DNA of 64,000 bases, taken from Caulobacter sp. SL161. Its GTDB lineage: Bacteria; Pseudomonadota; Alphaproteobacteria; Caulobacterales; Caulobacteraceae. Each line of letters begins with the position of its first letter. Position 1 is the stretch's first letter. The stretch spans positions 2,356,001-2,420,000 of the forward strand of contig NZ_JAPPRA010000001.1 in assembly GCF_026672375.1 (NCBI RefSeq), read 5' to 3'. Positions 61,881 to 64,000 of the stretch are shown here, in pieces. Below the pieces are notes generated by a model that was not told the origin of the DNA, did not search any database, and saw nothing but the letters and a program-made list of their open reading frames with translations. A program made the translations under genes and the position numbers.

Positions 61881-61952
61881 GTCATCTATATAGGCGAACT
61901 TTGTTCCGTCATGGTGAACAAGCTCGGTGACGCGGTGAAGACAGGGAAAATG

Positions 61953-62134
61953 AATCCCTCTCTCTTCGAGAGAGGGAGGGGCCCGCGCCGCAGGCGCGGG
62001 AGGGTGAGTGGTTACGAGCCCTTCAAGCCCTGGCGGTGATCGTCATTCGGCGGCGCGAACGCCTGAGACGTTTTATCCTCTCACCCTCCCACCGCTGCGC
62101 GGCGGGCCCCTCCCTCTCTCCACGAGAGAGGGAT
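61953..62134. repeat. Long palindromic element between hdaA and ppk1
   Basis: Two arms (61953-62008 and 62080-62134) are near-perfect reverse complements over about 55 bases, around a 71-base centre. Each arm itself contains a small hairpin (CCCTCTCT...AGAGAGGG) and a GC-rich block. It resembles dispersed REP/MITE-like elements. It has no reading frame. As RNA it would fold into one large cruciform-like hairpin between the two genes. Confidence 0.75.
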
Positions 62135-62136
62135 TT

Positions 62137-62835
62137 TTACCCCGCCTCATCCTCCCCCTCGAACCCCTCCAGCACTTCGCGCGCCAAGGCCTTGTTCAGC
62201 TCGCGCCGGCGCGCGGCGGCTTCCTCGTCCAGCAGGTCGGCCGCGGCGATGGCTTCGGCGGCCGAGCGGGGCAGGCGGGCGACGAGGTAGGGATAGAGGT
62301 CCGGCTCGGGCTTCAACAGCCGCTGGGCGAAGGCCCGCCGCAGCACCGCCTCCAGCACCGCGTCGTCGGGCTCGTCGAGGACCGCCACCGACAGGGCGTT
62401 CAGCCGCGAGCGCAGGTCCGGCACCGCCGTCTCCCAGGCCAGGGGCGCGACCCGGCCGGTCAGCAGCACGGTCCCGCCGTCCACCCCGGCCATGTTCAGA
62501 AGGTGAAACAGCGCCTCGTCGCTCAGCGCGCCGCCCTGCGCGCGGCGGTCGGCGTCCTCGACCAGCACCGGCCGGCCGCGCAGAGCCGCCAGATCCAGCG
62601 GCGCGGCGGCCGGATCGGCCGCGTCCACCACCACGGCCCCGACCTCCTGGGCCCAGGCCCGCGCCAGATGCGTCTTGCCGCCGCCCGCCGGGCCCACCAG
62701 AGCCAGCCGCCCCTCCGGCCAGGCCAGCCACGCATCGACCCGCGCCACCGCCTCGGCGTTGACCGGCGAGACGGCGAAGTCCTCCCGGCCATAGCTGGGG
62801 GTGAGGGACAGCGGCAGTCGAAACTGGGTGGACAA
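62137..62835 (-). CDS. hdaA: DnaA regulatory inactivator HdaA (Hda homologue)
   Basis: Protein of 232 residues: a DnaA-like AAA+ module without the DNA-binding domain IV. The N-terminal QFRLPLSLTP contains the sliding-clamp binding motif. Walker A is GPAGGGKTH (48-56), Walker B VLVEDAD, sensor TVLLTGR and the Arg finger region LRSRLNALSV. With the DNA-bound clamp it stimulates DnaA-ATP hydrolysis, limiting replication starts. The start is TTG 62835. The frame is open upstream, but no ATG is available close by, so the start is not certain. Confidence 0.92.
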   Translation of the reverse strand: MSTQFRLPLSLTPSYGREDFAVSPVNAEAVARVDAWLAWPEGRLALVGPAGGGKTHLARAWAQEVGAVVVDAADPAAAPLDLAALRGRPVLVEDADRRAQGGALSDEALFHLLNMAGVDGGTVLLTGRVAPLAWETAVPDLRSRLNALSVAVLDEPDDAVLEAVLRRAFAQRLLKPEPDLYPYLVARLPRSAAEAIAAADLLDEEAAARRRELNKALAREVLEGFEGEDEAG

Positions 62836-62889
62836 GCCCTTGGGGTCCGGCGTGGTGAACGTCAGGCCAAGGATATAGGCCGCTTCGGC

Positions 62890-62952
62890 GGGGCGGGGGA
62901 GGTGGCGGGGCTGGGGATGATGGGGATTAGGGCGTGGGAGGTGTGGATGGGG
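62890..62952 (+). other. G-tract array, possible G-quadruplex
   Basis: Eight or more runs of three to five G lie on the plus strand with loops of one to seven bases (GGGG-C-GGGGG first, then GGGG-CT-GGGG-ATGAT-GGGG-ATTA-GGG-CGT-GGG). This satisfies the usual four-tract G-quadruplex rule more than once. It lies 55 bases upstream of the hdaA start, on the non-template strand relative to a plus-strand reader. Confidence 0.55.
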
Positions 62953-62986
62953 TTGGCGAGCGAGTTAGCTCGGTTAAGCTGACCTA

Positions 62987-63508
62987 ATGAAGCTGGCTCC
63001 ATATTCCTACAAAGCTGCTTATGAGCGGGTAGCAGAGCTCATTGGTTATCCTGTTGAGCGAAGCACTAGGATATTCGCAATTGAGGGTTTGCCTTCGGCT
63101 GGCAAATCATCGCTCGCATCTTGGTTAGCTTGGCAATTTGGAATGCCGGCTGTCCACCTCGATCTCTTCTTGATACCCGGCGATATCGGTAAAATAGCGT
63201 GGCGTGAAAGCGAAATAGCTGAAGCGATTAAGGGGCGCGTCGAGAGCAAACGTTCCCCGCTTATCGTCGAAGGTGTATTCTCTTTCGCCGTACTGGAGAG
63301 GCTCGGCTTGGCACCCGACTTGAAAATACTGGTAGAGAACCTGAACAACATATCTGACGATCCGCTGGTCGATATGACGCGTGCTAGATGCCAGGACCCT
63401 CAGTTTCTGAAATCGGTTGATCTTACTGTCAGGTGGAGCGATCCGATGTCGACTGCTGAGGAGGCCAAACTCGCCTTTCAGACGTCACTGGAGAGCTGGC
63501 GACCTTAG
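62987..63508 (+). CDS. P-loop nucleotide-binding protein (kinase-like), likely acquired
   Basis: Protein of 173 residues. Walker A is GLPSAGKSS near 34-42. HLDLFLIPGD and LIVEGVFSFAVLERL resemble the acceptor region of uridine kinase and AAA_33-type nucleoside kinases. Function is not assigned beyond nucleotide binding. The DNA is visibly lower in GC and uses A/T-ending codons unlike neighbouring genes, with no strong ribosome site. It stands between the hdaA upstream region and a cluster of palindromic repeats, which suggests horizontal acquisition. Confidence 0.7.
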   Translation: MKLAPYSYKAAYERVAELIGYPVERSTRIFAIEGLPSAGKSSLASWLAWQFGMPAVHLDLFLIPGDIGKIAWRESEIAEAIKGRVESKRSPLIVEGVFSFAVLERLGLAPDLKILVENLNNISDDPLVDMTRARCQDPQFLKSVDLTVRWSDPMSTAEEAKLAFQTSLESWRP

Positions 63509-63573
63509 TCGTCATTTGACCGAGCCGCGCCCCCGCGCGGTCCCGTCCTTAAATCTCTTGGAGGCTGCAGCGT

Positions 63574-63666
63574 GCAGGACTGACCAAGTCAGTCAAGGAC
63601 CGCCCTCCGGGCGGCCGCGCGGCGGCGACGCGGAGCGTCGTCCTTGAGTGACTTGGTCAGCCCTGC
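63574..63666. repeat. Palindromic repeat, type B
   Basis: Arms 63574-63600 and 63640-63666 are reverse complements at 25 of 27 positions (core CTGACCAAGTCA). The 39-base centre holds nested hairpins, including CCGCCC-TCC-GGGCGG. No gene is present. Confidence 0.75.
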
Positions 63667-63738
63667 GATCGTCTCGCCGTGAGATGTAAGGCGGGCTCCT
63701 TCTCGGGCGAGAAGGGGCGGAACTGGGTCCAACATAAC

Positions 63739-63870
63739 CCCCGACTTCCCCGGCGAATGCCGGGGCCCAGATTCATCCCGAGCGGTTTGGGCGGGCGCGA
63801 CCTGCGGCCTTGCGAGCGCTTCGACGGCGGCGGGTTCGATCTGGACCCCGGCGTTCGCCGGGGAGGTCGG
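63739..63870. repeat. Palindromic repeat, type C
   Basis: Arms at 63739-63772 and 63838-63870 are imperfect reverse complements. Each arm itself forms a hairpin (CCCCGGCG...CGCCGGGG). Sequence of this kind is widely dispersed in intergenic DNA of GC-rich alphaproteobacteria. Confidence 0.7.
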
Positions 63871-63884
63871 AGTTCAAAAGGTCC

Positions 63885-63996
63885 GTCATCCCGCGCTTTA
63901 TGCGCGGGACCCATTTGTCCGCCGCACGGGCCTAGATCCCTCACGCGCTCACGGGGAAGCTGAACCATGGGTCCCGCGCATGAAGCGCGGGATGAC
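63885..63996. repeat. Palindromic repeat, type D
   Basis: Arms 63885-63914 and 63967-63996 match as reverse complements at 29 of 30 positions (core CCCGCGC...GCGCGGG). The 52-base centre has no gene. The element may continue beyond the window. Confidence 0.75.
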
Positions 63997-64000
63997 GGGG

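Follow-up and report, generated by a model that had tools for sequence, protein, structure and literature searches.

The stretch of DNA analysed here (the window; 64,000 nucleotides, positions 2356001-2420000 of the main contig of a 4.0-Mb genome) probably carries, at its right end, an occupied slot of a hotspot between hdaA and an EcsC-like gene, in which small low-GC modules, often anti-phage ones, are replaced as units while the flanks stay. The hdaA-EcsC interval is an exchange hotspot between core genes without a visible integrase: the gene order is conserved, each occupied genome holds different cargo, near-empty alleles occur and the left cargo edge is sharp. In addition, a structured palindrome, here called element A, lies directly at the right edge in part of the occupied genomes and beside swapped cargo at further loci. 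The present cargo of our genome is a foreign, strain-specific gene for a P-loop protein (Table 1).

Table 1. Features of the hdaA slot and of related loci (window positions unless a locus handle is given)
Feature	Position	Strand	Remarks
Long inverted repeat, ppk-hdaA gap	61950-62135		GAGAGAGGGA..TCCCTCTCTC; inner arms GC-rich
hdaA, left core gene of the hotspot	62137..62835	-	NCBIfam NF051883, DnaA regulatory inactivator HdaA, E 2.8e-129
hdaA upstream region	62836..62950	.	far edge (..GGTGTGGATGG) is the sharp left cargo boundary; by eye
Cargo ORF, P-loop NTPase-like, 173 aa	62987..63508	+	522 bp; Walker A GLPSAGKSS
Hairpin just 5' of A	63525..63540	+	by eye; a hairpin of differing sequence lies there beside many A copies
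Element A, structured palindrome of ~145 bp, EcsC-side cargo edge	63547..63691	+	inverted-repeat arms within 63574-63666
Hairpin just 3' of A	63698..63715	+	by eye; usual there, absent at the locus with cargo directly on the 3' side
Element B, dispersed CIR-like inverted repeat	63739..63872	+	CcrM site (GANTC); arms within 63741-63870
Element C, dispersed REP-pair-like inverted repeat	63881..64000	+	CGTC..GACG ends; arms within 63883-63998
Repeat resembling that at 61950-62135, past the EcsC-like gene	~L011 10797-10975		by eye
Type II-A retron, cargo of G073	L077 1889-3765		PADLOC; both proteins, RT and NDT
PDC-M34-type gene pair at H3, G072	L170 1676-2967		related to the pair in the next row
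PDC-M34-type gene pair at the hdaA site, G019	L100 1658-2808		related to the pair in the previous row
Accessory pair beside an A copy	L162 1677-3936		DUF5131-like and TcmP-like genes (names by eye)
ZMP/ZTP riboswitch	L140 2515-2595		66 bits; ~0.9 kb 3' of an A copy whose 5' side is low-GC
p02 homologue of the P-loop gene with four adjoining ORFs	L014 5711-10491		homologue has an in-frame stop (TGA)
PADLOC cargo of G070, G013; G061; G072; G023			PDC-M07; PDC-M25; DitA; part of DrmA
PADLOC cargo of G025; G030; G028, G064; G032			PDC-M38; DpdB; NsnA; PDC-S15 and NsnA
PADLOC cargo of G026; G019; G020; G024			TIR effector; PDC-M34; HEC-01; PDC-S32

hdaA is present in 68 of the 75 genomes of the genus, and its surroundings were read in 57 of the 68. 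The right-hand core gene, which we take to be EcsC-like, starts at genome position 2420063, 63 bp past the end of the window, and is followed by a GNAT-like gene, secG and pyrG (names by eye). The two core genes are adjacent in the same arrangement in 38 of the 57 regions; in three others the cargo is interrupted or closely followed by a contig end, and with these 41 intervals were readable. In 16 distant genomes (hdaA 49-54% identity) EcsC does not lie beside hdaA in the stretch read; some of these regions are cut by a contig end, and in one an EcsC match lies reversed at a distance of 5 kb. ppk was found on the other side of hdaA in 52 of the 57 regions, with a gap of 26-446 bp between the two genes. 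Low-GC cargo of one or two ORFs fills 29 of the 41 intervals (GC cut-off 0.575, relaxed to 0.61 for G035 and G039), nine are near-empty (202-313 bp), and three (G005, G010 and G029) have other content; the slot reaches up to 2.8 kb. An all-against-all BLASTP of the 43 cargo ORFs returned ten weak pairs, of which the best full-length one had 33% identity and another 35% over 62 aa, and no two genomes share cargo, G000, G044 and G027 included (HdaA 96.6-98.3% identical to that of G000). Conserved core flanks with variable content, the mark of a hotspot, were thus found, and the preferred landing site next to hdaA that a sequence-only reading of this DNA had proposed proved larger than guessed. 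That reading had also remarked that no transposase or integrase is visible, and by eye we saw none among the ORFs of at least 100 aa from the window end to pyrG, ~3 kb downstream. The hdaA gene of G058 (L119) contains one TGA inside the matched frame.

The cargo ORF of the window stands out by composition, with a GC of 0.517 (51.7%) and a GC3 of 0.546 (55%) versus GC3 values of 0.927 in hdaA and 0.939 in ppk (93-94%), and sliding GC drops to 0.51-0.56 across it. This agrees with the 522 bp of lower-GC coding DNA of different codon preference described earlier from the sequence; the ORF is real, with its start corrected to 62987. The gene had been expected to be strain-specific, and conservation across the genus, which that description had set as its own refutation, was not found, a sequence search detecting no homologue in the 74 other genomes. 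The search gave two matches in the 75 genus genomes (the gene itself, in its own genome only, and one generic P-loop match of 20.7 bits), four in 299 family genomes, three in 385 class genomes and 12 in 398 phylum genomes; apart from the gene itself, these samples yielded generic P-loop matches of at most 24 bits, which rules out a conserved, fast-evolving core gene. Neither the phage set nor the viral contigs contained a match. Among plasmids a single record matched, plasmid p02 of Azospirillum sp. TSH58, with 43% identity over 91%. The named genomes gave no match when searched with the single P-loop sequence and five with a two-row profile, namely relatives of 41-42% identity in A. brasilense, A. 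isscasi and 'Roseomonas genomospecies 6' and two weaker ones in an Acetobacteraceae MAG and an Ancalomicrobiaceae MAG. The Walker A motif and further columns are common to four aligned P-loop proteins, and AlphaFold2 on four sequences reached a mean pLDDT of 36. The best profile E values were 0.018 in NCBIfam, 0.19 in Pfam, 0.0019 in PHROGs and 0.29 in PDB; no nucleoside or uridine kinase family matched at family level, and the weak, generic P-loop similarity leaves the earlier label 'kinase-like' a guess. A search against defence profiles, which had been recommended with it, returned IetA at 0.005 as the best PADLOC match and none at 1e-5. Judged purely by its position, the gene most likely has an activity against phages or other mobile DNA as well.

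The cargo of 15 of the 29 genomes has a PADLOC match at E<=1e-5 (41 of the 43 cargo ORFs were scanned singly, and the other two, of G039 and G013, were covered by a pooled scan that lists 25 of 204 families), and Pfam families among the cargo include AbiJ_NTD4 (two members), SLFN_AlbA_2 (two) and GmrSD_N (three). The other 14 cargo genomes, that of the P-loop gene among them, have no PADLOC match at 1e-5. Of three core genes scanned as a control, hdaA and ppk gave no match and the EcsC-like gene matched at 7.9e-8; weak matches therefore need care and are no proof of defence. Cargo rich in defence genes, a further mark of such hotspots, was accordingly seen in 15 of 29 genomes against this three-gene control. 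The two related PDC-M34-type gene pairs of Table 1 lie at two different swap sites.

The left edge of the slot falls at about one and the same point: cargo-bearing genomes are alike up to ~62950 and then continue into unrelated cargo, with the last bases varying in a few genomes (by eye). Up to six DnaA boxes have been reported in C. crescentus for the promoter of hdaA (PMC3193534), and selection on such a promoter can explain the sharpness of this edge. At the right edge, element A is found in 12 of the 29 genomes with low-GC cargo (the G063 copy being cut by the contig end) versus none of the 12 without (Fisher p=0.008). In the remaining 17 of the 29, the cargo extends to EcsC, in several directly, or to other DNA, with no A between, which shows that A is not required at hdaA and eliminates the idea that cargo there depends on it. 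Judged by the upstream sequence, eight of the nine near-empty genomes seem to form a single clade, and A is absent genome-wide from the seven near-empty genomes of this clade that were searched (G003 included), so that the link between A and cargo at the hdaA locus is confounded by descent. In G044 and G027, A and B occupy the same place, at 95.5-97% identity, beside different cargo genes; close relatives with other genes thus have both elements in common, and A and B predate the P-loop gene. This contradicts the earlier assumption that the palindromes were collected together with the gene.

Going inwards, element A has an outer stem, then an internal loop that hardly varies between copies, a long inner stem and finally a tip of three hairpins, which is variable; a flanking hairpin usually lies on each side. 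RNAalifold folded 55 copies into a consensus of -78.5 kcal/mol with 54 pairs, 20 of which show compensatory changes; such covariation is no proof of an RNA, because in inverted repeats it can also arise by correction at the DNA level. A search of the window stretch against Rfam 15 gave 16 matches up to E 5, all below the gathering score and ten of them to microRNA families, and at six further A loci no family matched A, the ZTP riboswitch of Table 1 lying elsewhere in L140; no known RNA family was found, nothing reaching the gathering score. Counting partial and reverse ones, 17 of 18 genomes contain 2 to 20 matches to A each. A covariance model, applied with strict filters although a model of a long hairpin may catch other palindromes, found A in 47 of 199 sampled family genomes and nine of 22 genera (our own included) and in two of 190 genomes of the class sample, one being our own. 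The model matches viewed from another genus (three genomes) and from G007, G017 and G020 of our own (L257-L262) have the shape of A with a different internal loop and may represent subfamilies, each with a partner protein. Identity between A copies averages 83-85% for different loci, and is 0.876 within loci (n=90) versus 0.846 between loci of one genome (n=145); the nearest relative of a copy lies at the same locus in 19 of 37 cases and at another in 18. By these comparisons A is mostly inherited in place, yet it also spreads or is converted.

Forty further A copies from seven genomes, among the matches listed, were read with their flanks. Over 600 bp the mean GC is 0.594 on the 5' side versus 0.667 on the 3' side (Wilcoxon p=4e-4), and a GC below 0.57 occurs on the 5' side of 12 copies versus the 3' side of three (sign test p=0.035), these three forming one orthologous locus. 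DNA of GC<0.57 within 600 bp on one side flanks 15 of the 40 A copies versus none of 50 B and C copies (p=9e-7), which come from six of these genomes and lie apart from A, six of 56 having been set aside for their nearness to it; the 15 A copies sit at about five loci and are therefore not independent. At four sets of orthologous A loci the cargo differs between genomes, namely H2 (five genomes), H3 (five), H4 (four, of which our own has no low-GC cargo) and H5 (three). The 5' core flank and A are constant at these loci and the cargo differs, with A in the same place and orientation in genomes without common cargo within H2-H4; at H5 the cargo lies on the other side of A, and low GC on the 3' side was seen at L136, H5, L255 and L257. 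A further 17 A loci, one of them already in the 40-copy set, comprise eight with a 5' and two with a 3' low-GC flank. The 20 cargo ORFs at H2-H4 and three further loci have no mutual similarity at E 1e-4; one pair among them has relatives in the hdaA-site cargo of G019, one ORF is related to the AAA cargoes, and four of the seven proteins scanned from this set match PADLOC families. By eye, the left edges are locus-specific, with no shared boundary motif among the hotspots; at H2 the edge is formed by a hairpin that resembles a terminator and has a T run, and at H4 by a stop codon. A thus marks the cargo edge often at the hdaA site and also at four further orthologous loci.

The other two repeats behave differently. 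All three had been noticed from the letters, and their arms were found here; folded as single-stranded DNA against dinucleotide shuffles, A, B and C gave z scores of -7.6, -6.4 and -8.4, with none of 200 shuffles as good in each case. All three also recur in our genome, with at least 79 matches among those listed (self and reverse-strand matches included; 40 of 92 candidates scored). A differs from B and C in its link to low-GC flanks, and three equal mobile elements are ruled out. GANTC is present in 23 of 30 B copies, mostly at one position, versus 32% expected by shuffling, and in one of 29 C copies and two of 40 A copies; by virtue of this CcrM site B resembles the CIR elements, and its unchanged position in G044 and G027 beside other cargo makes it older here than the P-loop gene. 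B and C are ordinary dispersed repeats and bystanders. At L005, L130, L137, L138 and L141, C lies reversed 34-42 bp downstream of A, and the two often stay together.

How the slot turns over can be outlined as follows. Cargo, mostly one or two genes, would enter with DNA from other bacteria and be replaced through homologous recombination within the core DNA on either side, perhaps also in A copies, which average 83-85% identity between loci. We infer homologous recombination from the lack of any recombinase gene seen and from edges that fall at the ends of functional units; together with the near-empty alleles, these features fit a double crossover in the flanks. A persists through the changes of cargo, and may provide homology for recombination, act as an insulator or terminator, or mark an original entry site.

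The strong hairpins of A would suit a bidirectional terminator or insulator whose protection of core genes against arriving cargo accounts for its retention at the edge, and the terminator-like left edge of H2, the stop codon at H4 and the general respect of edges for functional units point the same way; a simple terminator, however, needs no near-invariant internal loop, and 25 of the 40 A copies have no low-GC neighbour, so we regard this role as possible but doubtful. We are similarly hesitant about a MITE-like repeat that prefers insertion near low-GC DNA, with the cargo association reflecting target preference. A MITE would have terminal inverted repeats with a target-site duplication and a link to a transposase; inverted-repeat ends are present in A. 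Its dispersal over nearly all genomes searched and the frequency with which its nearest relative lies at another locus would be expected of such a repeat, but at H2-H4 A is constant in place and orientation beside cargo that is never common, copies are more alike within than between loci, and A sits at the edge of low-GC DNA rather than inside it.

A bolder proposal is that A is the dock, or attachment site, of a recombination system acting in trans, in which a folded strand or cruciform would be recognised through the internal loop and single-gene cargo loaded. The near-invariant loop, the compensatory changes, the direct contact of A with cargo at hdaA and H2-H5, the mostly constant low-GC side (12 versus 3 copies) and the lack of such a link for B and C speak for it. 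On the other hand, no two of the loci examined have the same left edge, these edges coincide with the ends of core functional units, inspection by eye showed no common second site, H5 and a few further loci have their cargo 3' of A, 17 of the 29 hdaA cargo genomes do without A, and attC boxes are absent. An active dock is accordingly speculative, and we think it improbable that A forms a new class of structured DNA (or RNA) docks across much of the Caulobacteraceae, marking and perhaps directing the loading of single defence modules. The least probable of these readings, and one we hardly credit, takes the P-loop gene for leftover cargo of a GInt-type site-specific island whose recombinase genes were lost. 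Recombinase-like genes do adjoin three of its four relatives, mostly in Azospirillum: two of the four ORFs beside the p02 homologue match tyrosine-recombinase profiles, and similar ORFs were seen by eye in A. brasilense and 'Roseomonas genomospecies 6' (L047, L048), a layout like that described for GInts (PMC5385486). Against this, no recombinase trace was seen in the hdaA region, the 680-aa and 151-aa ORFs of p02 have no profile match, the stretch inspected by eye in the fourth relative (A. isscasi) revealed no recombinase, the Azospirillum-type loci are close relatives that may count as one event, and the matter concerns one cargo in 29.

The preferred reading, a hotspot of module replacement between hdaA and the EcsC-like gene, has practical consequences. 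The interval is a simple address at which most genomes with the same gene order show a different candidate defence gene, and cargo of unassigned type there, the P-loop gene included, forms a list of candidates that can go straight into phage assays in relatives of a model bacterium. The link of A, but not of B and C, to several swap sites turns the movement of small defence modules without a recombinase of their own into a testable question; if A were indeed a dock, one genome would carry many one-cassette defence slots with no recombinase gene at the site.

Several known systems invite comparison. Like the attC site of integrons, A is a long imperfect palindrome at the edge of small cargo. 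attC sites carry the boxes R'' (RYYYAAC) and R' (GTTRRRY) at their two ends. Both boxes together occur in none of the 40 A copies and single ones in four and one, which rules out an attC site; unlike in integrons, moreover, cargo genes stand on both strands relative to A and no integrase was seen. GInt islands are recognised by the operon ginABCD, which encodes three recombinases and one small protein and adjoins the cargo, and the Azospirillum relatives of the P-loop gene adjoin an operon of that look (PMC5385486); at the hdaA site no recombinase-like ORF was seen by eye from the window end to pyrG, and the site therefore does not qualify as a GInt. By its length of >100 bp, its inverted repeats, its dispersal and its frequent GANTC, B resembles the Caulobacter CIR elements as described (PMC2229807), a likeness to the description rather than to the CIR1-4 consensus, whereas A and C mostly lack GANTC. 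C likewise resembles, by description and not by family consensus, the CGTC-tagged REP repeats (PMC3733652), with CGTC/GACG hairpin ends in an alphaproteobacterium; Caulobacter is not named in the main text of that paper (0 occurrences). Neither Rfam nor the literature searched, whose scope largely leaves aside subscription papers, yielded a description of the hdaA site and element A. As a whole, the slot is reminiscent of the hotspots cDHS1 and cDHS2 of Pseudomonas aeruginosa, which are core-flanked, low in GC and home to many different defence systems (PMC10250203); those, as the paper presents them, are large (medians 26 and 6 kb), additive and located beside tRNA/tmRNA genes, unlike the smaller hdaA slot, which is of the replacement type. 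A further comparison is with the integrase-free hotspots of Oliveira et al. 2017 (PMC5635113), whose rapid turnover between core genes the authors attribute to double homologous recombination in the flanks: the hdaA slot, too, turns over between conserved core genes without mobile-element genes, and it differs from the hotspots described there in holding mostly one or two genes and in having an edge palindrome that recurs at other hotspots.
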